From a virus: 22,603 nucleotides of DNA. The translations under genes and the position numbers were made by a program. Shown here one piece after another: positions 3 to 22,584 of the stretch (its first letter is position 1; the number at the start of each line of letters is the position of its first letter). Under the pieces are notes generated by a model. The model made no database searches, had not been told where the DNA came from, and worked only from the letters and a program-made list of their open reading frames with translations. Where the stretch lies: IMG/VR virus record IMGVR_UViG_3300025282_000269, positions 1 to 22,603 of that record. One strand, 5' to 3'.

Positions 3-2060
3 TTGCTTGATTGTTCCTTGTCTGGACTTGGATTTAATACAGTATGCGAGGTAGAGCCTGAGGAAGAAAAAGAAATTATACGATTGGTGTATGGCCCCCC
101 TGTAGCTAAAGAAGGTCAATTCATTATTTCTAATGATGGGTTGTATTATGATTCACAAACTCCTCAGGCCAGTGGTGTTGTACAGGTTCTTGAGCATTTA
201 AATAAAAGCAAATCCAATGTTCCTATTGAGGATAGATGGAGGTTTGAGCATGATGCTAACTTAGGAGGCAAGGGAGTTCCAATGTCTTCTAAGTCGGTTA
301 GATACTATGTAGATACTTTATTTGATCCTACAATTATAGATGAGACTGGCGCTCTAAGGGCTTATTACGAAAAAGACCATTATTTGAAGACATTAGAATC
401 TCAAAAAACAAAAAGGGTTTATGACCTTTCTTCTCATATTGAGGAATTTGAACAGGGTGGAGCGTCCACTGCAATAATACAAAATACAAAACAAAGCGTA
501 TACTCAGAAATATCTTTATTTACACATAGAATAAATAAACGAAAAAAACAAATAGAGTTAGCAGTTAAAATGCCAACTATCTATGGAAGTGGGCCTTTGT
601 TTAGTCCAGGCGAAGTTCCAGTTAATGATTTTTCATATTTACAACAATTTAATTTTGCTAATGATATCCATAAACAAAAAGCTTTGGTTTTGGATCAAGC
701 AGATGTTACTGGTGTAGTTAGTCCTATTGTCCCTAAGTATGTTGTAAGTAAACAAAAGGATGAAGTTGAGAATATGGAGCATTTATTTGTTGCTGATATA
801 GGGAGAGGAGAAATTTTATATTCTAATTCTGCATCTAGCACAGTGGCTCCGAAGCTACATCTTACAAGTAGGATATCTACCAATGGTTTATTTGCAGTAT
901 ATAATTTCCTTGAGTCTAATATAGTCGCGACTTCTTCTAGCGAATTTAATGTTACTAATTGTGCGGTAGAAGAGGTTTATAATAATGCTCAACTTTTAGG
1001 TAATCATACTTCTTCTGTATTTGTGTCAGGTCTAAGTATTCCATATTTAAGAGGCGTAACACAACAAATAGAAGAGCATCCTTTTTATGCATCTAGTCTA
1101 GGTAGCGTAGTTAGATTACCGGAAACTCAAGAGTTTGATGATTTAACATATAAAATAGAAGGATTTACTTTTGAATCATGGATGTATGTTCCTGATTTAA
1201 CTAATGTGAGTAGAGGATGGACGGATAATTCGGCATCTTCATTATATCGTTTAGTATTAGCTAATGAGAATACAGGTTTAGATCCAGGGATTACAGCCCA
1301 AACAGACCCAGAACGTATAGATATAGATTTAGGAGATGCGGCAACTAAGGGGATGATAATGGGTTTCACTAGAGATAGGCGGCTCACCAAAAGTTTAGAG
1401 TATTCTATTAATAATCACGATAATCTTCCTACTTCTAGTTTAGCGTTTTTTGCTGCCCCAACGCAAGCTATTAATAATGCTTCGGCTGCACTTATTCATA
1501 ATGGATGCTCTCATGATGTTACTCCAAATTGGTATTCTTTTACTGTAGATGCGAGTACTGTAAATTCTAAGGGACAAGCTCTTTTATTGTCTGGTACTAA
1601 TCAATTTATTTTAGCGTCTTTAGTTGTTGAGCCTGTAAAAGATAAAATAAGTTTATATGTAAATGGAGATCTCCTTACGACTTCTTCTCTAGAATCTTCT
1701 TACGGTAGAGATAAATATAATACGCCTTCCGTCCCTTCGTTTAAAAAAGCAACTAGCTTTAGTTATTCAGGAACTAATGTAGGGACTTCCGCTACGGCAG
1801 AAATAACTGAAGGTCCTAGATTAGGATCCTATTTTACTCCTACGTTACTAGGAGGAGGCTATACTGATGGTATCGCTGGGACGGGCTTTATGGGCAATGA
1901 AACTTTTGGAGCTATCAGTGGCTTAAGAGGATACTTAGGAAGTGTAAAATTTTATGATAGAGCTTTAACGGATGGAGAAGTGGAAACTAATTATAATGCT
2001 CAAAAAGAGGTATTTGAAAATATAAGTACACCCAGCACGTATACGGAGGATGGATCATAA
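3..2060 (+). CDS. Large virion protein with C-terminal LamG/concanavalin A-like domain (5' partial)
   Basis: The open frame runs in from the left edge. The first usable codon in the window is a TTG at position 3 with no visible ribosome binding site, so the true start is probably upstream and this is the C-terminal 685 residues. Residues 1-360 match no family I recognise. From about residue 365 to 670 the pattern is that of a LamG/ConA-like beta-sandwich: GFTFESWMYVPDL near 386, ISLYVNGDLL near 550, and the closing strand GLRGYLGSVKFYDRALTDGE near 640, which is the usual end of LamG_3-type lectin domains. Such domains in phage virions usually bind glycans or decorate tail or baseplate structures. 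The gene ends in TAATG, sharing one base with the start of the gp25-like gene, which suggests co-translation with the baseplate operon. The LamG call is firm at motif level; virion location is inferred from context. Confidence 0.8.
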   Translation: MLDCSLSGLGFNTVCEVEPEEEKEIIRLVYGPPVAKEGQFIISNDGLYYDSQTPQASGVVQVLEHLNKSKSNVPIEDRWRFEHDANLGGKGVPMSSKSVRYYVDTLFDPTIIDETGALRAYYEKDHYLKTLESQKTKRVYDLSSHIEEFEQGGASTAIIQNTKQSVYSEISLFTHRINKRKKQIELAVKMPTIYGSGPLFSPGEVPVNDFSYLQQFNFANDIHKQKALVLDQADVTGVVSPIVPKYVVSKQKDEVENMEHLFVADIGRGEILYSNSASSTVAPKLHLTSRISTNGLFAVYNFLESNIVATSSSEFNVTNCAVEEVYNNAQLLGNHTSSVFVSGLSIPYLRGVTQQIEEHPFYASSLGSVVRLPETQEFDDLTYKIEGFTFESWMYVPDLTNVSRGWTDNSASSLYRLVLANENTGLDPGITAQTDPERIDIDLGDAATKGMIMGFTRDRRLTKSLEYSINNHDNLPTSSLAFFAAPTQAINNASAALIHNGCSHDVTPNWYSFTVDASTVNSKGQALLLSGTNQFILASLVVEPVKDKISLYVNGDLLTTSSLESSYGRDKYNTPSVPSFKKATSFSYSGTNVGTSATAEITEGPRLGSYFTPTLLGGGYTDGIAGTGFMGNETFGAISGLRGYLGSVKFYDRALTDGEVETNYNAQKEVFENISTPSTYTEDGS
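2045..2050 (+). promoter_or_regulatory. Ribosome binding site of the gp25-like gene
   Basis: GGAGGA lies nine bases before the ATG at 2060, inside the end of the upstream gene. It is the strongest Shine-Dalgarno sequence in the tail part of the window and supports the ATG at 2060 as the start. Confidence 0.7.
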
Positions 2061-2524
2061 TGGCTTTAAATACAGATACTACAGTGTATGGAGTACATCC
2101 TCCTATAGATATAAGAAAAAAGGCTGCCGCTAGTACCAAGAGAGTGTATGGATTATCGTATCCTCTGACTGCTAACTTGAATGCAGGGTATTTTAGTAAA
2201 GAGACAGGTAAGTCTTTAGTTAGAAATAATTTAACGCAATTATTAACTACCAATCTAGGAGAGCGGATATTACTTCCAGGATATGGGGTAAATTTAAGGA
2301 AGTATTTATTTCAGCCTATGGATGAGACTTTATTTGAAGCTATTAAAAACGAAATATTAGCTGCCATAGCTAAATATGCTACGAACGTTAAAGTTATAAA
2401 AATAGGAGTATATTCATTAGATGAGTATGGTGTTGAAGGCTTGCAAGCTATGCAAATAAAATTAAGTGTACAAATTAAAGAATCTGAAAACACTACATTT
2501 GAAGTTGGAGTTAAAATAGGATAA
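2060..2524 (+). CDS. gp25: Baseplate wedge protein, gp25-like (GPW/gp25 family)
   Basis: This 154-aa protein carries the hallmark of the gp25/gpW family: TTNLGERILLPGYGVNLR at residues 63-80 followed by KYLFQPMDE, equivalent to the conserved NPGER-x-pdfG-xxLrrlLFeP segment. In T4 gp25 and P2 gpW this small protein sits in the baseplate wedge next to the gp6/gpJ dimer and helps start sheath assembly. The length is slightly above the usual 130 or so because of a 30-residue N-terminal extension. The start overlaps the upstream stop by one base, and the stop overlaps the gp6-like start by one base, so it is probably translationally coupled on both sides. The gp25-then-gp6/J order is typical of contractile-tail phages. 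The family assignment is confident. Confidence 0.93.
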   Translation: MALNTDTTVYGVHPPIDIRKKAAASTKRVYGLSYPLTANLNAGYFSKETGKSLVRNNLTQLLTTNLGERILLPGYGVNLRKYLFQPMDETLFEAIKNEILAAIAKYATNVKVIKIGVYSLDEYGVEGLQAMQIKLSVQIKESENTTFEVGVKIG

Positions 2525-4143
2525 TGGCATTTACAGGCGAAGTGAAATCTGATTTTATGAAGGATGTGATAATTCCTTTAGAGAAACGACCATCAGTAAT
2601 AAATTATGCAGCTACTGATTTCTTATCAGTAAGGGATTCTTTAATTGATTATATTAAAGCTGTATATCCTTTAGAGTATGAGAACTTTTCTGAATCTGAT
2701 TTAGGGGTTATGTTGATAGAGATTGTTGCTTATATGGGTTCTGTGTTTTCTTTAAAGGCTGATATGTTAGCAAACGAAAATTATTTACAAACTGCCAAGC
2801 TAAGAAAAAATGTTAAAAAGTTATTAGAGTTGATAGGAGTAAGGATGAAAGGTCCAATTTCTGCTGCTGCTAATGCAAAAATTACGTGGCCTTGGGAGCC
2901 TGGAGGGACCGCTCCTTATGTACCTACTCCTGGAACCCTTCACGATATAATTGTACCTCCACACAGCAGAGTTATTACTATCACATCCCCTGAGGATGGA
3001 TCGCAGATTTCTTATACGTTATATAAAGTTTTACCCAATGGTAAAGTTGATAATGCTAATACTAATGGTAATATGACCATAACAGGTGCAGAGGCTGAAG
3101 GATCTGTGAGTGGGATACACACTAACTTAGTTTTCTTAGAAGGGTCGTTAGTATCACAAGCTGGCGGATTTACCTCTACGGAAAAGTCTAAAGTAATTTC
3201 TTTAGCTAATAGCCCAATTGTAGAAGGAAGTATTAATGTTTTTGTAGAAGGAGACTCGACTACAAGTGGAACTTATAGATATGTTGATAATTTGTTTTCA
3301 GCCTCGGGTGATGGGGATAAAGTATTTCAGATAAGTACAGATGATGAGTTTAAAGCCAATGTAATATTTGGAGATAATACAGTTGGGCAATCTCCAAATA
3401 TGGGGGATACTTATTTTGTAACGTATAGAGTAGGGGGAGGCTCTAGAGGGAATATTAGAAATGGAGTTATTAATACGCAGGTTGTAGGTACTGTAAATGA
3501 GGTATTGTATACAGGACAGCTTACTAATATTTCAATAGGTACGGGTGGAGCCGACGCAGAAACTGTAGCACATGCTAAGAGATATGCTCCTCTTACTTTT
3601 AGACGCCAAGATAGGTTAGTTACTTTGCCAGATTTTGAATCTTTCGCTAATACGTATATTAGTCCTTATGGATCCGTAGGTAAGGCAACAGTTGTAACTA
3701 GAGAAGGTTTCAGTTCTGCAAATATAATTGATGTTTACATATTGGAGAAGGCTAGTGATTTACAACTAAGAAGAGCAACTCCTGAGTTTAAAACCTCTAT
3801 ACTTACTGCTATGAATCAAAAGAAGATGTTGACTGATGAATTGGTGATCGTTGATGGTCTGATAAGAACTCTTGATTTAGTTATGACTATAAGAATTGAA
3901 CAAGAACTTAAACGTCAAGAGCCTGATATTTTGGCATTAGTGCGTGGTAAAGTGTTTGATTATTTCTTTGTTGATAATAGAGAATTCGGTCAAAACTTTA
4001 TATTACAGGATTTGGTTAGGTCTGTTCATGATATTGATTTGGTTAGGTTTGCTACCATAGATAATTTAAGTGAAGATGTAAGTATTGAACATAATGAAGT
4101 TATTCAATTGAATAATTTAACAATTAATGTTGTGACAATATAA
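2524..4143 (+). CDS. gp6: Baseplate wedge protein, gp6/gpJ-like (baseplate J family)
   Basis: A 539-aa protein of the baseplate J/T4 gp6 family, which forms the dimeric wedge ring holding the baseplate together around the hub. The N-terminal part has the typical gp6 pattern: a short helix then YPLEYENFSESDLGVMLIE (residues 48-66), IVAYMGSVFSLKADML and ANENYLQTAKLRKNVKKL, close in character to the T4 gp6 start. The C-terminal J-like domain starts about residue 339 with GTGGADAETVAHAKRYAP, then RRQDRLVTLPDFESFA (about 361-375), the typical entry to the conserved core. It is shorter than T4 gp6 (about 660 aa) but longer than P2 gpJ. The ATG overlaps the gp25-like stop by one base. The ribosome binding site is weak (GGAG 2507-2510, 13 bases away), so expression probably depends on coupling. 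Confidence 0.92.
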   Translation: MAFTGEVKSDFMKDVIIPLEKRPSVINYAATDFLSVRDSLIDYIKAVYPLEYENFSESDLGVMLIEIVAYMGSVFSLKADMLANENYLQTAKLRKNVKKLLELIGVRMKGPISAAANAKITWPWEPGGTAPYVPTPGTLHDIIVPPHSRVITITSPEDGSQISYTLYKVLPNGKVDNANTNGNMTITGAEAEGSVSGIHTNLVFLEGSLVSQAGGFTSTEKSKVISLANSPIVEGSINVFVEGDSTTSGTYRYVDNLFSASGDGDKVFQISTDDEFKANVIFGDNTVGQSPNMGDTYFVTYRVGGGSRGNIRNGVINTQVVGTVNEVLYTGQLTNISIGTGGADAETVAHAKRYAPLTFRRQDRLVTLPDFESFANTYISPYGSVGKATVVTREGFSSANIIDVYILEKASDLQLRRATPEFKTSILTAMNQKKMLTDELVIVDGLIRTLDLVMTIRIEQELKRQEPDILALVRGKVFDYFFVDNREFGQNFILQDLVRSVHDIDLVRFATIDNLSEDVSIEHNEVIQLNNLTINVVTI

Positions 4144-10450: not shown

Positions 10451-13400
10451 ATGCCTTTTCAACCTTACGATATTTATACTGCTAGCGGGTCCGCTTCTTT
10501 ATTTAATAGTTGGACAACTCCTGTAACTAAATTTGATCCTAGTTCTTTCTATAACTGGGAGCAAGATAATGAACCTATTCATGATCTAGAAGAAAGAACT
10601 TATATGAATTGGGAACATGCTGGATTCCATACTTCAACTGTACCTGGGATGGTGTTCACGGTTTCTGCTGATGCTACGGCTGCGACTCTAACGGCAAATT
10701 CTAACATTTTTACATCGGTTAGTGCAGCCGTTGAAGCTTTACCTTCGGATATTAGATTTCCAATATTAATGGAAATTGCAAATTATGGTAGTTTAGAAGA
10801 ATTAAATCTCAAGAATATTAATATAGGGTATGGAGGTTCTTTAGAGATAATTAATAGAAACTTTGTGAAGGCGTATGCAATGTCAGGAGGCCCTTCGGAT
10901 CCTTCGGGCACTACCAAGATAGATGATTTATCGGATTCAGACGCTGCATTAGTTCAATATAAAATGATTAACTCTGTTAGTAGTCTTGATATTAGCTCTA
11001 TTTGGACAGAGGCTAAAGCAGTACATATTGATTCTTTAGTAATGAGTTCAGTTGATGATCGTCGTTTATATGATGATACAGTTATTAATAGTGTTTTCCA
11101 ACCTTTTGCTTCCGGGGTGTATGCAGGGAATGATCAATCTCGATTATCCGTAGGTATAAACGGAGTTCCAGCAGCCGATAATAAATATACTTTAACTATT
11201 TTTGAAGAGGGGGCTGCTTCTAGGGGTACTCCTCATCACATATTAACTTATGATGTAAGTGCTAAAGATTCCACCTTTCGTGAATTATTAATGACTAGTG
11301 GCATTACCAAAACCGCAGCTACTAAAGTTCAAGGAATGCTGTATGGTAATCACGTAACAAAACTTAGGGTTCATAATTGTAATGGACCAATATATATTCG
11401 TAATTTCTTTATTAATTCAAGTGATCATGATATAGACGGAGTTCAGGTTTTTGATTCTAATGATATTTGGATTGAGAATTGTGCTTCTATTAATAATAAA
11501 GTAGGGTTTAATTTTAATAATTCCAAGGTTCGTATTAATAGAGGTATAGCGGCATATAGAAATTATGGCATAGATGAGGATGGGTATAGGAAAACCAGAG
11601 AATGGAGCGAGGTTAGTGGAGCAGGACATACATTATTAGATGATGGTGCAGGGATTAAAGCGTTAAATTCAGAAATTGTATTTAATAATGCAAGTTCCAT
11701 ATATGGTCGAGAAGGGTCTGATAAGACTACTTCAGGTGCTTTTGAGAATGAAGTATTTCCTTCTGAATTTTTAATAAACTTTTCCAGGAACTCTAATGGG
11801 ATAATTTTAGATAACTCTGTTTTGCGTGGGGGATGGGCTGGAACTAATACTAATTATTTTAGTGGGACCATTTATAATGTAGAACTTAGTAATGAGTATG
11901 GGATACTTTCAAGAAATTCTACAATTGATTTAGATGGTAGATTGAAAGTTTATTCTAACAAAAGAGGAATGTTACTAGAGAACAGTAAGGCTGTTTTAAA
12001 TGAATGTGTGTTTAAAGGTAATCAACACGAAGGGCTACAGGCTGTAAATTCTACTATTCAATATAATAAGAATTTACAAAGAATAACAAATATAGGCTCT
12101 CCAAACAATAATGAGTATCAGTTTGATTTCTCAGGCAATGGTAGGCATTTAGTTCTAGACCAAGGATCAACTTTTGTCCCAACCTTAACTTCTTCCATGG
12201 GCTCACATTACGGTCAGATGAGGTTTAAGGATCATCATGGTACTACTCTAAGTAGTATCGTTCCCAAAGGATCAAAGTTATTATCTCCTGTTGAAGTTAC
12301 TAATAATTCTAAAGCTACTTTCGTTCACCCTATTGTTAAATCGTTTGCTAATGCAGAAGGTATACAAGCTAGCCTCGTCACCCCTACTCGTTCTTATCTA
12401 GGAGAATGTTTATCTATCACAAATAATTCTAAGGCATTATTACAAGGATCTAAAAATGGTGCATCGGTAATTTATGGATCTATAGAGGGCTTCACAAATT
12501 CATTAGGGTACAAGGCTCATAGTAAATCAGCAGGCGTGTATGTAGGAAATAATTCCGAACTCGAATGCAATGGTCCTACTGTAATGTTTAACTTTGCAGT
12601 TGATGCCCTCGCTGAAAATAATTCAGTTCTTAATTTTAATCCTCCAAAAACGTATGAGACTGGGGGGTTGGATGTTAGTGGTTGGGATTTGGATGATTCA
12701 AGTAACCATACCTCTGTTGAGCTTCATAGCGTTAATAGTTGTTTAGTAGCAAAGAATAACTCTACTATTAATATGAAAGATTTAGGAGACTACCATGCTT
12801 ATTGGACTACTGCAAATGCCTCTGCTGCTGATTATGATACTGGCGTTGGTGGGTTCGATATTTCTTCTTTTGTGAGTGGAGGGTCGATGCAATTTTATCC
12901 AAATCCAGTTGGAGAAACTTATTACGACAACATGCCTCAAGCTGAGACTAAACCAACAGCAGCTATTATAAATGAAAGAACGGATTATACTTTTAATACT
13001 ATTGCTAATGAGGCTACGGCTAACCCTGCAACTAGGGCGGCGAACCGTAATTATTATTTAGAATCTAAACCGTTTGAGACAGATCCTCTGAATGTATCCT
13101 CCACAGCAGGAGGTAATTGCTTAAGAGCTTTAGGAGGTAGTCAGGTTAATGTTCTAAATGTTAATTTCCCTGCTGGGTGGTGGAATGCTTCTGGTTTAAT
13201 TTATGATGTTAGTGGTGCGGAAAAAGGGGCTATTGCTACTTTATGTAATCAGTTGTTTATTTGGAATATTGCTGATAATTCTAGATTAAATGCTGCTTTC
13301 TGTTCTGTAAGTGGGTTAGATCCAAGATCAGCAGGATATAATGGTCCATCTGCAACTTATTCAGGTACCGTTGCTCAACATACAGTTCTTCAAGGAACAA

Positions 13401-14103: not shown

Positions 14104-16260
14104 ATGACAATTAAACTAAAAATAGGTGGGGCTACGACAGGTAGAAAATTTACGGACCCCATTCGATATTTCAAGGCTAATGATCCTTATTATTGGGAAG
14201 TAGATAATATTCCTTTAAAGCAACTTCAAGAAAATGTTAGATATGTAAACGACAGATTGAACACAGCTATAGTTTCTGGGACTTTAGATGTCTCTCGGCA
14301 GGATATTACTGAGTTGAAGCCTTGGGTTAATGGATCTGATAATAAAGTTAGAGTAAAAGGAGGACGTTACACGGCGAGAATTAATAACGCCCATGATATT
14401 GATCGCTTGGATAGTTTTGTTAGAAAGTCTAGTTCTGAGATTTTAGGTAATCATACTAATTATGCTTGGACATCCAATTCTTTTTTAGATAATCTACTTG
14501 CTAGGGCTCAATCAGCGGCAGGCGCTGCTGCTTTAAATTTAAATGGATTGTCTGAAAGAGTATTTGGTCAAATAGCAAGAAATCCTAATGAAGTAGTTGA
14601 TCCTATGGATGAAGATCCTCTATTTCCAAGAACACCTAGACCTTTACCGAGTACGGAAGCCCTCTTGGGACCCTCGGGAAAGGGAACCGGCGTCCATAGC
14701 TACTTTGGTGATGCTTTACCTATATCTGAGCATTTAAGTTTATTCCAAGTAATGCGAGCAGCACCGAACTTCAATAGCGGAACCACTGGAGCCTCGCTCT
14801 TTCTAACACCAACGCAAGCTAATGGAGATCCTAACAGGTTGCTGTTTTTACCTGTTTTAGAAAATGCTTTAATCAAGTATTGGAGAGGCACAGCCAGGAC
14901 TTCTATAGTAGATGTTCCTAATGGATTAGAAATTGCAATTCCTGATTTTGATGCTAGTATAGATTTTCCTGGTGTAGCAGGGGCTACATCGAGAATTGAT
15001 TTAGTGTTTATTTATTCAAAACCTATTGATACTAGTGCAGTAACCATTGGGAAATATACAGGAGGCACTACTGGTGCAAGTAGAACAAAAATTAGAGAGC
15101 CTATATTAGGTGTCTTACGTGGAGCAGGGATTGGTGTTTCTCCTACTCCGTCTTTAGGAGCAGAACCAGTAATAGACGTAAATGGCATTTCAAAAATGGT
15201 AGCTAGTGTAGCAGATCAAAGTAATACTGATAGTGGTTTTAAAGTTGGGGTTAACCAACCTAATCAAGCAATTCATGGATCTTTCCCGTCCCCTGAAGAT
15301 TTGTTAAATATTGCTCCCTTATTATCCGAACAATTACAAGAAGATAGTTGGTTCCTTACTGGACAAACTATATTTCCTGTGGCATATGTTAAAGTTAATG
15401 AAAATCCTGGAGTTAATGTTCAAGGAACTAGTGTTCTTACTGATGATGATATAGTAGATATTAGACCTTTGTTTAGGACAGCAGAGCTTACTTATAATGA
15501 GAGAGCAGGTATTGCAGCGGCTATGCCTTCTTTATCCCTAGCTAATAGGGCTGTAGGTAGGTATGAGCTAGAGCATGAACTTAATATGCAATATGAAAGT
15601 GTAGATGCCAGACTCATAGAATTAGAAAAAATTAAAAGTGCAACAGTTCCAATCGAGAAAACCGTGTTTTGGGAGCCAAGCCACGGAACGTCCATAAATA
15701 ATGTATGGGGTCAATCGGCAGCGCCAGGCTCCAGAAATAGTATAGTCCGTGCTTCAAGAGGCGATCATGTTAATGCTTTTGGCGGGGATCCGGCGAGTAA
15801 GGTTCAACACGAAGTTCAACATATGATACCCACGGCACATCGGCCTTTAGTAAAATATATCCATATTAGAGTATCCTCTTTTTGGAATTGGGGTTTTCAG
15901 GGAAGTAACCCCACTAAACCTACGACAGTCAACCTGCAACCTGCCGCATCTCACATACCAAAAATATGGGCAAAGGCCCCAAGTGAAAAGCGATATGCAC
16001 GTTTACTTTTGCGTCACAGTGTTATGTGGGTTGCTGGTTCATACTTCGGTAATTTAGAGCATGGTGGAGAGCCTGTGGTCATGATGCCTGTAGATTATGA
16101 CGCAACAGACGATTCATTAGTTTTTGAAACTCATATGACCCACTGGAAGGGTCCGGGTGGCGGGGGCAATACTATGAATTGGCCTACTCATCATCAACAT
16201 ACAGAATTAAAGTTTGAAGGATATACTTATCTTGATAACTATTCTGCATCCTTTGGTTAA
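14104..16260 (+). CDS. Fibre/baseplate structural protein with YxWExDNxP N-terminal module
   Basis: A 718-aa protein. Its N-terminal block RYFKANDPYYWEVDNIPLKQ (residues 21-40) then LQENVRYVNDRL aligns with the FYNWEQDNEPIHDLEER block of the beta-helix protein upstream, so the two probably dock onto the same partner. The centre (about 285-460) is beta-rich with RIDLVFIYSKPID, PVAYVKVNENPGVN, SVLTDDDIVDIRPLFRT and TYNERAGIAAAMPSLSLA, followed by a short predicted helix around LEHELNMQYESVDARLIELE. The last 60 residues are rich in His, Trp and Gly (THWKGPGGGGN, WPTHHQHTE). I do not recognise a named family. No enzyme motif, signal peptide or membrane segment is visible. The start follows the previous stop by eight bases, with only weak purine stretches upstream. 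A structural tail role is strongly suggested by context. Confidence 0.78.
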   Translation: MTIKLKIGGATTGRKFTDPIRYFKANDPYYWEVDNIPLKQLQENVRYVNDRLNTAIVSGTLDVSRQDITELKPWVNGSDNKVRVKGGRYTARINNAHDIDRLDSFVRKSSSEILGNHTNYAWTSNSFLDNLLARAQSAAGAAALNLNGLSERVFGQIARNPNEVVDPMDEDPLFPRTPRPLPSTEALLGPSGKGTGVHSYFGDALPISEHLSLFQVMRAAPNFNSGTTGASLFLTPTQANGDPNRLLFLPVLENALIKYWRGTARTSIVDVPNGLEIAIPDFDASIDFPGVAGATSRIDLVFIYSKPIDTSAVTIGKYTGGTTGASRTKIREPILGVLRGAGIGVSPTPSLGAEPVIDVNGISKMVASVADQSNTDSGFKVGVNQPNQAIHGSFPSPEDLLNIAPLLSEQLQEDSWFLTGQTIFPVAYVKVNENPGVNVQGTSVLTDDDIVDIRPLFRTAELTYNERAGIAAAMPSLSLANRAVGRYELEHELNMQYESVDARLIELEKIKSATVPIEKTVFWEPSHGTSINNVWGQSAAPGSRNSIVRASRGDHVNAFGGDPASKVQHEVQHMIPTAHRPLVKYIHIRVSSFWNWGFQGSNPTKPTTVNLQPAASHIPKIWAKAPSEKRYARLLLRHSVMWVAGSYFGNLEHGGEPVVMMPVDYDATDDSLVFETHMTHWKGPGGGGNTMNWPTHHQHTELKFEGYTYLDNYSASFG

Positions 16261-16266
16261 ACTATA

Positions 16267-19200
16267 ATGCCTTCCAATAGATTTGGATGTGGGGAAATTG
16301 CAACTGGATTTAAACCCGCAGGATTTCCCCCTGGCTTTTTTGTTTCTAGTAGAGTAATTCCTACAAATACGGGGGGAGGCGGCTCGGGAACCGGTGGCGG
16401 CATCATCGGCGGGCCAGATCCAACGTGGCGCTGCGAAGATATCAAAAAACTGCCGTGTGCAGATATTCCGAGACATAAAACATTAACTCCTGAGATCGTA
16501 ATAAGAGACTGTGTAAAAGACCTAACAGGTAATGCTCCTCATGCAACCAAAGAGATTTGCATGATCCAAACCCCGTGTCTTAGCGATGTATGTCAATACG
16601 AAGAAATAACTGAAACTCGGGATAGAGAACGTCCTCCTCCTACTGGTAGACCGGGAGTTACTACGCCTGGAGGAAGTCCAACGACCCCCACAGGCCCCAC
16701 CACAGGAGGACCAGGCCCTAGACCTGATGCTTGGTATTGTAAACAGACTCAGCCTCCTAATTGTAGTTTCTTTATTCCTCTGAATGAGGAATGTGAATGT
16801 ACTCCTTGTAAGTGTACCGTTGTTCAAAGTCCAGAAGGTAAAAATAAGTGGAGTTGTTCAGTTCCTGGAGGTGTTAATATTTGCGGAGGTGCTTCAACTT
16901 ACATTTGTAAGCCAAAAAATAAGTGTAAAGCGGGGTGTGCGGGCAAAAAATGTCCTCCTGTTGAAAGATGGAAATGTATTGAGAAGAGTAGGAGCCTTTG
17001 TGCGGGAAGTACACCCGGTATTGGAAGTCATGAGCCTGGGTTGTTAGGTGGTTTATTTGTTAAAATTGATAGAGAGTGTCAAAAATGTAGTGCGGAAGAA
17101 ATTGCAGCAGGCGGTCAAGGATGTATCTTTACGAATGATCTGTGTGTTAGTCTGGGGGTTGAAATGTGTAAGGATCAAGACTGCCCAGAGGATCCTCCTT
17201 TTGGAGGAGGACAGTGGACGGGTCCTTCTGCTGCTAGGGCACCTTCTAGAAGATACAGATGTATTGAAGCTAACCGTAGATCCTGTGGTGTAGGGTATGT
17301 GGGGAATTATATTACACGATTTTGTGAGGAGTGTTTGTGTTATAAGATCCCTGGAGTTATAGGGGAAAGGTGTTTTGATTTAAATAGTAACCCTGTGGAG
17401 AAGTCGGAATTTCCTTTTACGTCTCCTCAGGAATGTGAAAGTTCTTGTACGAATGAAAGATGTAGTCCTATCGGAATTCCTACTAAAACGTACGAATGTG
17501 ATTGTGCAAATAATCAACCGTGTACAGGATTTAATTCAGCGACAGGCTCTAATGTTCAGAGTCAGGTATGCAATTGTACTCAATGCTATTGTGATGATGA
17601 GGATGGAGTTAGAGTTTGTAGGAATTCTAAAGGAAAGATTATTGGAACAGGGGAAAAAGTTTGTACCAAGTCTTTAAATGATTGCCAAACATCTTGTAGT
17701 GATAGGGGTTGCCCTTCATGGTCTAAATGGGGTTGTTTAGAAACTAAGGGAAATAAATGCTTATCATCTCCTCCCGAAGAGGAGCTTATTACTGAATGTG
17801 TTGAGGCTACTTGTAAAGACGGAGTTAATGGAGTTGAATGTATTCCTTTGAATGTTCCTAAGGAGCAGAGAAGTAATATACGAAGGGGAGAATTTAGTTT
17901 CAACTCCAGAGGAGAGTGTGAAACAGATCGTCTATCTCCTTATGGAAGTTGTAAGAGCCAATTATGTGCAAATAGCACTACTAATATTCGTGGAGTTAGT
18001 TATACTATTGCATCAGCTTTTCAAGCTATCCCTCCTCCAAATTTAGGGATTAGAAAATATAAGGCTATTGATGTAAAACACTTAATGACATCTGAAGAGT
18101 CTGGAAGAAGTATTTACAATACTGATTTTAATTTTTCTAATCGTGGATTTTCTAGGGAGATTTCAGAACTAACGCGAGGTCATTCATATCCTAGAATATT
18201 TAATGAATATATTTCACCTATAGTTCAATATTTCTTAGTTCATAAAGGAGAAGGTTCCTGGGACGAAGTTTATGTGAATGAGTTAAGAAATAATATAAAT
18301 CATTTAATAAAAAGCTTAAATCCCAATTTAAATTTAATATTTAATAATCTTACATACCCTACTGGTAAGAAAGTAAACCCTAATCACATATATAATGGGC
18401 TAATCGAATTATTATTAACAGGTAAATTAGATGAATTTGATCCAGATTATTTTGACGGATTATATGGTGCTCAAAATAATATGGAGATTCTTGAATATAA
18501 GCCTTCATCAGATAAGGACGAAAATGATAAAGTTGCGTTGGGCATATTAGCGGATTCTATTGTTCCTGCTGATCCCAAAAAATATTCAGATAGGAATAGG
18601 GAATTTGATTTTATAGCAAATACTAAAGCTTTCCTTACGGATATCAAGGCTGAAGTTTCTGTTAAATTAGAGAGTGGAGATACTGTTCCGTTAGAAGTAT
18701 CAGATGAAGGGATTAAATTATATGATGCGGATGGAGACCCTGCAATACTGTCTTTAGGAACCGGATATGGATATTATTTCCCCATTACGGTAATAACTGA
18801 TGCACCCGATGTCCCAGCAGTTACCTACGCTTTAGAACCTGAGACGCAATTAGCTGATGCTTACTATACACCGATAGAGGCGGCCAGTCAGGCAGCAGAT
18901 TTATTAGGTAAAGATAGTTTTATGATGCTTAGTGTATCGTCTGTCAGTGGTCAAAGTGAGTTTGATGGTTCAGGATTTAGTTCTGTATCTTCGGCAAGTG
19001 CTACTTATTTTGCTCTTGACATATCAGCTATGTTTGGGAAAACGTCTCCTGATAATCCTATAGTACATGAGTTGAAATGTCCGTATAAAAAGATGACAGA
19101 TTTGGATGAAATAGACGCACATTCAATAGAAGCAGGAACACAAGTAACTGAAGTTTTCTTACACTATAATGATCCTATTAGGTCTTATCTTGAAGATTCT

Positions 19201-20034
19201 GAGTATTGTGATTTAGATTTAATAAATATTGATTTTTCTTCGTTTATAGATAATCGGGCTCCCTTAAGTAGAGAAATTATTGTTCGTGGTAATGTTCCTA
19301 GGGCTTTGGTATTTATTCCTGCCGTAGGAAGTAAGTATAATCCTTTTCATGCAAAATCAAAAGTGGACAAGGTATATCAAGATGAAGGAGGCAATGTACG
19401 AGTTTCTAGGGTTTGCGAATTAGCTCCTTACTTAGAAGGACCTGCAAATAAGATTAAACATGCATCAACAAGAAAATATACATTCCTTGAATATGGAACA
19501 TACGGTAGAGGAGTGTTAGGAATTAAACCAGAAAATCATCCAATGTCTGCAATTGATGTAGATGCATCATTCTTTAAATATGAACTGAGTGGGAAACAGG
19601 AGTATAATACCTTATTCTATTCAAATGGGTCTTACACTTCCGCTGTGCCTGATATTGTTGTTCCTCCTACTTCAAAAGTTATTGAAGTTATGGATAGTTT
19701 GAGGAGCAATTATAAGTATACACACTTTACTTGGTGGGACTTGTTTAGAAGACTTAAATTATTTGAATACGCAGGAATGAACTTAGAAATGACAGATGAA
19801 GTTTTAAAATCATTAGAAAATGGAGTAGTTACTGGAGGAGATCCAGTAACTATGGTGATGATAGGAAAAAATGAATCTAATACAGGAATGTTAGATCCCA
19901 AGGATATTACTAAATATTTAACAGAAGAGGACAGACTTTCTTTATTAGTTGAAGGTACAATTACAACGGATGATACATACCTATCAGAGTCTGATAGAAC
20001 AGGTATAGTTTCAGAAGGCTTTCCTGGAGGTTAA
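16267..20034 (+). CDS. Large virion-associated protein with six cysteine-rich tandem repeats
   Basis: A 1255-aa protein I cannot assign to a known family. Residues 36-49 are a Gly-rich linker. Residues 54-567 hold 55 cysteines arranged in six repeats, each starting [WY]xC-x7-C and ending C-x4-C. Residues 121-152 between repeats 1 and 2 form a Pro/Thr/Gly linker. Residues about 568-1255 contain only three cysteines and look like a globular virion protein: mixed helix and strand, e.g. IFNEYISPIVQYFLVHKGEG, a Ser/Ala-rich part near 905-930, and FTWWDLFRRLKLFEYAGMN near 1158. The C-terminus is acidic (TEEDRLSLLVEG). There is no N-terminal signal peptide, so the cysteines would be made in the reducing cytoplasm. 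They may bind metal or form disulfides after lysis. It is the last gene of the tail block, followed by the only substantial gap, so a baseplate or tail-tip role is inferred. The start lies six bases after the previous stop and has no clear Shine-Dalgarno. Confidence 0.8.
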   Translation: MPSNRFGCGEIATGFKPAGFPPGFFVSSRVIPTNTGGGGSGTGGGIIGGPDPTWRCEDIKKLPCADIPRHKTLTPEIVIRDCVKDLTGNAPHATKEICMIQTPCLSDVCQYEEITETRDRERPPPTGRPGVTTPGGSPTTPTGPTTGGPGPRPDAWYCKQTQPPNCSFFIPLNEECECTPCKCTVVQSPEGKNKWSCSVPGGVNICGGASTYICKPKNKCKAGCAGKKCPPVERWKCIEKSRSLCAGSTPGIGSHEPGLLGGLFVKIDRECQKCSAEEIAAGGQGCIFTNDLCVSLGVEMCKDQDCPEDPPFGGGQWTGPSAARAPSRRYRCIEANRRSCGVGYVGNYITRFCEECLCYKIPGVIGERCFDLNSNPVEKSEFPFTSPQECESSCTNERCSPIGIPTKTYECDCANNQPCTGFNSATGSNVQSQVCNCTQCYCDDEDGVRVCRNSKGKIIGTGEKVCTKSLNDCQTSCSDRGCPSWSKWGCLETKGNKCLSSPPEEELITECVEATCKDGVNGVECIPLNVPKEQRSNIRRGEFSFNSRGECETDRLSPYGSCKSQLCANSTTNIRGVSYTIASAFQAIPPPNLGIRKYKAIDVKHLMTSEESGRSIYNTDFNFSNRGFSREISELTRGHSYPRIFNEYISPIVQYFLVHKGEGSWDEVYVNELRNNINHLIKSLNPNLNLIFNNLTYPTGKKVNPNHIYNGLIELLLTGKLDEFDPDYFDGLYGAQNNMEILEYKPSSDKDENDKVALGILADSIVPADPKKYSDRNREFDFIANTKAFLTDIKAEVSVKLESGDTVPLEVSDEGIKLYDADGDPAILSLGTGYGYYFPITVITDAPDVPAVTYALEPETQLADAYYTPIEAASQAADLLGKDSFMMLSVSSVSGQSEFDGSGFSSVSSASATYFALDISAMFGKTSPDNPIVHELKCPYKKMTDLDEIDAHSIEAGTQVTEVFLHYNDPIRSYLEDSEYCDLDLINIDFSSFIDNRAPLSREIIVRGNVPRALVFIPAVGSKYNPFHAKSKVDKVYQDEGGNVRVSRVCELAPYLEGPANKIKHASTRKYTFLEYGTYGRGVLGIKPENHPMSAIDVDASFFKYELSGKQEYNTLFYSNGSYTSAVPDIVVPPTSKVIEVMDSLRSNYKYTHFTWWDLFRRLKLFEYAGMNLEMTDEVLKSLENGVVTGGDPVTMVMIGKNESNTGMLDPKDITKYLTEEDRLSLLVEGTITTDDTYLSESDRTGIVSEGFPGG
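16426..17967 (+). repeat. Six tandem cysteine-rich protein repeats (79-residue basic period)
   Basis: Within the 1255-aa protein, units begin at residues 54, 156, 235, 330, 409 and 488 (nt 16426, 16732, 16969, 17254, 17491, 17728). Every unit opens with an aromatic residue, any residue, Cys, seven residues, Cys: C56/C64, C158/C166, C237/C245, C332/C340, C411/C419, C490/C498. Every unit closes with Cys, four residues, Cys: C104/C109, C224/C229, C301/C306, C394/C399, C477/C482, C562/C567. Units 2, 4 and 5 have C-x3-C-x4-C at the end and C-x2-C-x-C in the middle. Unit-to-unit spacing is exactly 79 residues for 2-3, 4-5 and 5-6; unit 1 is longer because of a Pro/Gly linker and unit 3 because of a roughly 16-residue insert. 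Similarity is at protein level; I do not see long DNA identity, so the duplication is old. Confidence 0.85.
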
Positions 20035-21021: not shown

Positions 21022-21373
21022 GGCTAATAAAAAACTTAGAAGTGAGAAGAAAGTAGCTAAGGCTAGTAAGTCTAGGGTTAAAGTTTATGATTCAATTAAA
21101 CAAGCCTTAGAACAGGGCTCTATGGGACAAATATTTTCAACGGATAAAGCAGATCGTATGTATGTCTTAACGAAGCATAAATGGGGAAAGAGTGGACAAC
21201 AGACTGTAGGAGGCAAGACAGCAAAGGGATTTACTCCTGGATCTGCAACTCCTGGTGCTAGTTGGAAGGATATTAAAGGTTACGCGGTTCGTACCATGGC
21301 GAAACATGGAGGCAAACAATTGAAATCAATTAGCGGTGGACGCTACACTAAAAAGAAAAAAGGAGCTAAGTAA
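20996..21373 (+). CDS. Small basic protein, possible internal head/core protein
   Basis: A 125-aa strongly basic protein of unknown family. It opens with MNVEKILSEANKKLRSEKK; the ILSE-A sequence fits the (L/I)-x-E site used by T4-type prohead proteases, so the first nine residues could be removed during head maturation. The middle has a helix SRVKVYDSIKQALEQG and KADRMYVLTKHKWGKSG. The C-terminal half is Gly/Lys-rich (TVGGKTAKGFTPGSATPG, then KHGGKQLKSISGGRYTKKKK). The composition suggests DNA contact or packing against an acidic core partner. The start is inside the end of the previous gene and the stop overlaps the protease start by one base, so this is one tightly coupled cluster. A head role is inferred from position. 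Confidence 0.72.
   Translation: MNVEKILSEANKKLRSEKKVAKASKSRVKVYDSIKQALEQGSMGQIFSTDKADRMYVLTKHKWGKSGQQTVGGKTAKGFTPGSATPGASWKDIKGYAVRTMAKHGGKQLKSISGGRYTKKKKGAK
21361..21365 (+). promoter_or_regulatory. Ribosome binding site of the prohead protease gene
   Basis: AGGAG seven bases before the ATG at 21373, within the last codons of the preceding gene. A strong, well-spaced Shine-Dalgarno that fixes the start. Confidence 0.65.
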
Positions 21374-22584
21374 TGTTACTTAACGATGTACGTATATTAG
21401 AAAACATTGAAATTTTATCAGAAGCAAAGTCTCCTCAAGGAATGAAGATTAGAGGTTTATTCCAAAGAGCAGATGAACAGAATAATAATAATCGCGTTTA
21501 CCCTAAAACGGTCTTAGAGTCTCAGGTCAAAGGTCTTCAGGACATGATTAATGAGAATCGCCTATGTGGAGAACTCGATCATCCTAGTCATGACATTGTT
21601 AAACTGTCTAATGCTTCCCACCTCATCACGGGCCTGTATATGAAGGGCAATGATGTGATCGGTGAGGCAAAGGTTTTAGATACACCCGCAGGCAAAGTTG
21701 CTCAGGCTCTTATTGAAGGTGGAGTTAAGATTGGTATTTCAAGTAGAGGAGTTGGAACTCTGTCTGAGGATACAATGAGAAAAGTGAAGTATGTAAACGA
21801 AGATTACAAATTAGTAACCTTTGATCTTGTCGCAGACCCGTCTACTAAAGGTGCTTTCCCTTCTCTTTCTGAGTCTACTGAAAGCTGTAAAAAAACTCGC
21901 AAGATTGTAAATGATACTTACAAGAAAGCACTAGGGGAGAAGGTTTTTGTTACTATGCTAAAAGAAAGTTTTAAGAATTCTTTGGAGGAAGCTGATAAGC
22001 CATACGAGAGTGATAAATTATCGTATGATGAAGTTATGAAAATGCGAGGTTATCCCTCGGTGGAGGAAATTATGAGTAGAGGTGATGTAAAGGAAGATCC
22101 TTTTTATAAGGCAATGATGGCAGCAGTTAAGGGAGCTACTCCTGTTAAGGCTAAAGAAAGCAAAACTCCCAATCGAGCGGATCGTGCGAAACATAAAGCC
22201 GAGGGCCTTGGGAAATTCTTTGGCCCGGTGGCGGCAACTGGTGACGAGGCACAGAAAGCACTCGACGCCACATCGCAGGCTCAGAAACGATTTAAAAAGC
22301 AAAGAGCAAAGAAAAGAGCAGAGAATGCAAACACTCAACCAACCTACAATAAAATGGTTGAATTCTTAGCCGAGGCTCAGAAGAAGAAGAAGGCTCGCCA
22401 ATTGGAACTGCCTTTCCCAGGTCGTAGACCTCTTGCGGATTTCCTTGAAAAAGAGATTAAATCTGGTCGTGCCCAAAGCAAGATTAAAAAGAAGGTAGAT
22501 CCTAAGGGTGGGCAACATGATATTGAAGCAGAAGATAGACAAGATGCGGCAGATGCTGCTAGAGATCTTCATCAAGATAGATAA
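21373..22584 (+). CDS. gp21: Prohead core protease, T4 gp21-like, with long basic C-terminal extension
   Basis: A 403-aa protein whose first 170 residues carry the signatures of T4-type prohead serine proteases: RGLFQRADEQNNNNRVYPKT (27-46), the His motif CGELDHPSHDIV (65-76; catalytic His probably H70), the Ser motif KIGISSRGVG (119-128; catalytic Ser probably S124), and TFDLVADPSTKGAFPS (149-164). In T4 the enzyme cleaves core and capsid proteins after (L/I)-x-E during prohead maturation and processes itself. T4 gp21 is about 212 aa; here roughly 230 residues follow the catalytic domain, Lys/Ala-rich, with a helical scaffold-like look (EAQKALDATSQAQKRFKKQR, AEAQKKKKARQLELPFPG). Candidate self-cleavage sites are ILSE17-A18, LEE206-A207 and LAE334-A335. 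The start is coupled to the previous stop. Protease identity is confident; the extension as a fused core/scaffold segment is inferred. Confidence 0.92.
   Translation: MLLNDVRILENIEILSEAKSPQGMKIRGLFQRADEQNNNNRVYPKTVLESQVKGLQDMINENRLCGELDHPSHDIVKLSNASHLITGLYMKGNDVIGEAKVLDTPAGKVAQALIEGGVKIGISSRGVGTLSEDTMRKVKYVNEDYKLVTFDLVADPSTKGAFPSLSESTESCKKTRKIVNDTYKKALGEKVFVTMLKESFKNSLEEADKPYESDKLSYDEVMKMRGYPSVEEIMSRGDVKEDPFYKAMMAAVKGATPVKAKESKTPNRADRAKHKAEGLGKFFGPVAATGDEAQKALDATSQAQKRFKKQRAKKRAENANTQPTYNKMVEFLAEAQKKKKARQLELPFPGRRPLADFLEKEIKSGRAQSKIKKKVDPKGGQHDIEAEDRQDAADAARDLHQDR

Follow-up and report, generated by a model that had tools for sequence, protein, structure and literature searches.

Variable arrays of cysteine modules with even cysteine counts in a tail-cluster protein family of uncultured T4-like viruses

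The window analysed here, a virus record of 22.6 kb taken in its entirety, contains a gene for a cysteine-rich protein of 1255 amino acids within a T4-like tail gene cluster (Table 1). Upstream of it lie gp25-type and gp6-type baseplate wedge proteins, a tail protein of 1481 aa and four more ORFs (416, 202, 1214 and 718 aa), and downstream are three small ORFs followed by a prohead protease of the T4 gp21 type. This gene order places the protein in a tail/baseplate cluster, and from gene context we infer that it is a virion component of the tail or baseplate, in line with the original prediction of a phage virion protein. Among 19 relatives, 13 carry the major capsid gene gp23 on the same contig, and a virus-encoded thioredoxin was absent from the contigs of 19 relatives. 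The 1214-aa and 718-aa proteins start alike (FYNWEQDNEPIHDLEE, window 10451-10600, versus YYWEVDNIPLKQLQEN, window 14104-14220), and these similar starts are perhaps a shared baseplate-docking segment.

Table 1. Positions of the cysteine-rich protein, its parts and marker genes in the window
Feature	Position	Strand	Basis
Baseplate wedge genes gp25 and gp6	2060..4143	+	Tail/baseplate context
Upstream partner gene, 718 aa, no Cys, conserved N-terminal FTDPIRYFKANDPYYWEVDNIPLKQLQEN	14104..16260	+	Syntenic marker, >100 contigs
Whole ORF: N-terminal tag, Cys-module array and C-terminal domain	16267..20034	+	ORF, 1255 aa; L002 copy
N-terminal tag MPSNRFGCGEIATGFKPAG, window version of FxCGxxxPG, conserved single Cys8	16267..16323	+	Family motif
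Cys unit 1, residues 54-111, 6 Cys	16426..16599	+	Cys spacing
Cys unit 2, residues 156-231, 12 Cys	16732..16959	+	Cys spacing
Cys unit 3, residues 235-308, 8 Cys	16969..17190	+	AlphaFold2 model
Cys unit 4, residues 330-401, 9 Cys	17254..17469	+	Cys spacing
Cys unit 5, residues 409-484, 12 Cys	17491..17718	+	Cys spacing
Cys unit 6, residues 488-569, 8 Cys	17728..17973	+	Cys spacing
Conserved Cys-poor C-terminal domain, 3 Cys	18130..19974	+	Family profile E about 4e-151; AlphaFold2
Prohead protease, T4 gp21 type, Peptidase_S77	21373..22584	+	T4-like context

The cysteine-rich stretch noted originally (16426-17967) is only the N-terminal half of this ORF, the remainder of which includes a C-terminal domain of about 600 residues. 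Recounting gave the same 55 cysteines as first reported, within residues 54-567 (514 residues, 10.7%), and 59 in the whole protein. The six predicted units with invariant opening and closing spacings were all recovered: there are exactly six [WY]xC-x7-C openings, at residues 54, 156, 235, 330, 409 and 488, and one C-x4-C closing per unit, at residues 104, 224, 301, 394, 477 and 562. Opening-to-opening steps measure 102, 79, 95, 79 and 79 residues, in agreement with the claimed exact 79-residue period for three steps. When the cysteine region was shuffled 20,000 times, the mean number of opening motifs was 0.19 and the maximum three, with none of the 20,000 shuffles reaching six. Phage structural proteins, folded in a reducing cytoplasm, usually contain little cysteine; the other proteins of the window contain 0-1.7% cysteine, with none at all in gp25, gp6 or the upstream partner. 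Because the six openings far exceed the shuffles and the other window proteins are cysteine-poor, the observation is confirmed as real.

The units are nevertheless unequal in cysteine number (Table 1), and a reading as six equal repeats was dropped after unit-by-unit comparison, in which both cysteine numbers and similarity differed. Beyond the cysteines, only two pairs of units are clearly similar in sequence, 4 and 6 (z 5.5, cysteine positions kept) and 3 and 4 (z 4.0); units 2 and 5 are weakly so, and unit 1 shows no similarity. The C-x3-C pairs described at the unit ends stand directly ahead of the closing C-x4-C pair in three units and are missing from the other three. At the DNA level, no tandem repeat is left in the window.

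As a query, the window protein reached only one near-identical contig (L002 of IMG/VR, with an identical copy of residues 1-649), and the neighbouring upstream gene was therefore used to find the family. This gene is well conserved, with 46 and then 144 IMG/VR relatives (80 of the 144 were kept) and one contig from a Prochlorococcus single-cell genome. In some 80 contigs, the gene directly behind its homologue matches one C-terminal profile of about 600 residues. Of about 100 uncultured viral contigs reached through the upstream gene, at least 70 share one architecture in this downstream gene: a short FxCGxxxPG tag at the N-terminus (present in nearly all members, typically as [ST]FGCGxFLPGxGPxN), Gly/Pro-rich linkers, 0-100 cysteines in modules and a cysteine-poor C-terminal domain with 0-7 cysteines, mostly one. 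The region ahead of the C-terminal domain ranges from 33 to 1230 aa, and the cysteines between tag and C-terminal domain number 0, 4, 6, 8, 10 and so on, up to 100 (L021). Four members have zero (L016, L073, L076 and L033, the last also lacking the tag) and three have four (L014, L057 and L059). The family hallmark is thus a variable array of differing cysteine modules before a conserved C-terminal domain, while the exact [WY]xC-x7-C and 79-residue pattern proved peculiar to the window member and does not extend to the family as a general feature. Since the window's units went unrecognised by a profile of the modules of other members, homology of the modules across the family is traced by the cysteine pattern only.

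The N regions of five members (L020, L022, L030, L034 and L039) have extra cysteine-poor inserts of roughly 80-150 residues between the cysteine modules, which look beta-rich and give no match in Pfam. Long Thr-rich, mucin-like TTTTTTPTTTT linkers precede the cysteine modules in L024 (10404-11960) and L113 (2677-4660). A collagen-like G-x-y stalk was also considered and rejected, only one run of at least 24 residues being found.

With the tag cysteine left out, the cysteine count is even in 56 of the 64 non-redundant members that have any (binomial p = 6e-10, for members that share ancestry and whose parities are not independent draws). The fraction is conservative because L042 and L110, for which the tag cysteine was set too far downstream in the count, are both even once it is placed by eye. 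No comparable parity bias was found for 17 other residue types in the same regions, the strongest being Arg (p = 0.007). On account of the shared ancestry, changes were counted on a tree of the C-terminal domain, which answers the dependence in part: the cysteine count changed at least 50 times versus 6 changes of parity, about 25 parity changes being expected if unconstrained (P = 1.6e-8 for at most 6 odd changes in 50). One member, L111, was entered in the tree as 0, its array being a separate gene (28 cysteines after the tag, also even). The window member is itself among the few odd ones, with 55 cysteines, nine of them in unit 4.

Of the 56 even counts, 26 are multiples of four and the other 30 are not (2 mod 4). 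Given the parity and this balance, cysteines are gained and lost in twos and not in fours, which fits the disulfide prediction, unlike Cys4 metal sites. The pattern favours paired disulfides over four-cysteine metal sites: cysteines that are present and change in pairs, as disulfide modules should have them, are what both the family counts and the tree give, and the cysteines and histidines in fours of zinc modules are not seen in the counts, histidine being rare, although this is indirect evidence from sequence. Of the two options left by the original prediction, the disulfide knots are accordingly favoured, and the zinc or iron modules are not supported, the C-x2-C-x-C motif cited for them being no feature of the family.

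Comparison of close relatives reveals how the array changes. L010 carries a tandem array, about 3.9 copies of an 8-cysteine unit of 276 bp, that is missing from L008; their totals of 40 and 16 cysteines differ by exactly three 8-cysteine units, and their neighbour genes are 97.8% identical (as measured on L009, which shares its N region with L010). The modules expand by tandem duplication. In all 15 close pairs compared, conservation is higher in the C-terminal domain and the neighbour gene than in the N region; between L089 and L090, for example, identity is 41% in the N region versus 83% in the C-terminal domain and 85% in the neighbour gene. In L111 (4446-7898), the tag and array (29 cysteines, 1+28) form a gene of their own, and the C-terminal domain is encoded behind it by a second gene that has its own ATG. 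From this natural split it follows that array and C-terminal domain are separable, probably with both on the same structure. Architecture, spread, even cysteine counts, tandem expansion, fast divergence and gene splitting are all direct results of the computation; duplication, fast divergence and separability are hallmarks of an exposed, exchangeable part. In L068 (11460-13214), the C-domain gene lies in three ORF pieces in different frames, from decay or assembly errors.

AlphaFold2 with 25 sequences produced a fairly confident model of the C-terminal domain (mixed alpha/beta, pTM 0.76, most pLDDT 80-93), for which Foldseek found no match in PDB or BFVD. The original prediction had proposed modelling a single unit; unit 3, modelled with 21 other modules, gave two strands forming a hairpin and a C-terminal helix, at modest confidence (pLDDT 73, pTM 0.51) and with no Foldseek match in PDB. 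Sequence profiles found nothing significant among PDB sequences, and the window protein matched 0 Pfam or PHROGs families at E<=1. Pfam searches with the N regions of 26 members gave scattered single-member hits only (best E 0.003), as did those with 25 C-terminal domains (all E>0.01). The profile search proposed at the outset thus reached no well-described domain family in Pfam or PDB sequences, and the statement that no named family has such a pattern still stands, with Pfam, PHROGs, PDB, Foldseek and INPHARED all without a relative. Among the 50,697 phage records of INPHARED, neither the window protein nor, by tblastn, six members from distinct branches and the upstream gene had a match. 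The family is broad, statistically strong and without a described relative; with its cysteine-free upstream gene conserved in at least 144 IMG/VR contigs and without a relative in those phage records, the whole T4-like lineage appears to be without isolates.

We read the window protein as a baseplate-cluster appendage displaying disulfide-stabilised mini-domains, probably for surface binding, and give this reading a probability of roughly 0.6; its virion location, its redox state, with disulfide formation and its timing, and its ligand and adhesion function are what we infer. In this reading a T4-like virus would carry a modular appendage in its tail/baseplate region, with six modules here, fixed to the particle by the C-terminal domain and the FxCGxxxPG tag. 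Between these two, Gly/Pro-rich flexible linkers would string small disulfide-bonded modules, whose intrachain disulfides would pair up most likely once lysis frees the particle into oxidising water. The disulfides would render beads of about 60-80 residues compact and resistant to proteases with no need of a large hydrophobic core, and the beads may either adhere to cell surfaces or particles or protect the tail. Since they are freely gained, lost and duplicated and diverge fast, adhesion is the probable function and not an essential assembly step.

The same cysteines might instead toughen the structure, with interchain disulfides tying appendage subunits together or to the baseplate against premature contraction or shear, as in Agrobacterium phage Milano, where disulfides within and between chains hold the sheath, baseplate and fibres and have to be reduced before contraction (PMC10811340). 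The conserved unpaired tag cysteine would suit one interchain bond, much as Cys38 of the Milano fibre bonds to BW2 (PMC10811340). However, the even count per array suggests closure within the chain, the adjacent gp25, gp6 and upstream partner offer no cysteine, and a load-bearing lock would hardly permit a range of 0-100 cysteines with the array lost in L016, L033, L073 and L076, so that we hold toughening to be rather unlikely. Metal-binding modules working in the cytoplasm during assembly, whether zinc or iron clusters or metallothionein-like sequestration, would explain how a fold is maintained in the reducing host cytoplasm, and C-x2-C pairs do recur in many modules, with C-x2-C-x-C occurring three times in the window protein. 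Yet even counts fall on 2 mod 4 no less often than on 0 mod 4, histidine has a median of 1 per N region, Pfam scans of 26 members returned no recurring zinc-finger or metal-binding family, and the cysteine spacings (7, 12-25 and 20-36) are typical of disulfide mini-domains, all of which makes this explanation improbable.

We regard as very improbable that the beads are protease-inhibitor-like or otherwise enzyme-blocking, with a Kunitz-like hairpin and C-x3-C helix that would shield the particle or block a host surface enzyme. The hairpin and helix of the unit 3 model are in line with it, many modules end in [YF]-x-[ST]-x3-C-x3-C, reminiscent of the end of a Kunitz domain, and a PDB profile search lists the Kunitz protein Ixolaris, but at E=10, which is chance level. 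Against it, Pfam finds no Kunitz domain in 26 members, Foldseek finds no Kunitz structure for the module, whose model is of modest confidence, and the cysteine order is unlike Kunitz.

If the appendage of disulfide-stabilised mini-domains is the correct reading, phages use the oxidising exterior to finish folding exposed parts. The evidence points to the cysteine arrays as exchangeable surface parts that these viruses gain and lose, with a single tail-cluster protein reaching 100 cysteines, in a count shifting almost only by twos, in a common virus lineage. Only tentatively do we extend this to a general proposal, that a widespread, uncultured T4-like aquatic lineage shows hypervariable, bead-like disulfide mini-domain arrays on its tail as a tandem-duplicated, exchanged, surface-binding repertoire, a display strategy undescribed in tailed phages. 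The family carries a defined, testable prediction and may be a source of small disulfide binding scaffolds, and it marks out a T4-like lineage that has no isolate among the 50,697 phage records. Prochlorococcus is a possible host lead, from a T4-like viral contig (L049/L045, QCKN01000003.1, 130,604 bp) in the assembly of single-cell genome AG-409-P03, which carries the C-domain gene without any cysteine array. The cyanophage marker psbA was absent from the contigs of 18 relatives, and therefore gives no host assignment.

Among known systems, the baseplate cluster of T4 and marine cyanomyoviruses (gp25-gp6-gp7-gp8, e.g. Prochlorococcus phage P-HM2) has gp25 and gp6 in the same order as the window, as do the clusters of DSL-LC02 and vB_OspM_OC, and the gp21-type protease here and gp23 in relatives add to the T4-like likeness; in none of the three phage regions can a homologue of the C-terminal domain, of the upstream partner or of the modules be recognised. 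Kunitz (BPTI) and other small disulfide-rich extracellular domains share with the modules a small size, disulfide-like spacing, a predicted hairpin and helix and a C-x3-C near the end, but differ in cysteine number and order, which vary here, and are not matched in Pfam, PDB sequences or Foldseek. Phage Milano, whose structural proteins average 2.1% cysteine (PMC10811340), is the nearest functional analogue, being a contractile-tailed phage with disulfides in its particle proteins despite cytoplasmic assembly (PMC10811340), as is predicted here. Milano differs in having scattered single bonds between or within ordinary folds, where the window protein has tandem mini-domains, variable in number across the family, at 10.7% cysteine over 514 residues, and the two are unrelated in sequence, the window protein matching no phage record. 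The general kind, a disulfide-stabilised part of a phage particle, is therefore already known, whereas, judged by the collections searched, novelty lies in the tandem, paired format with its variable number and in the two protein domains.
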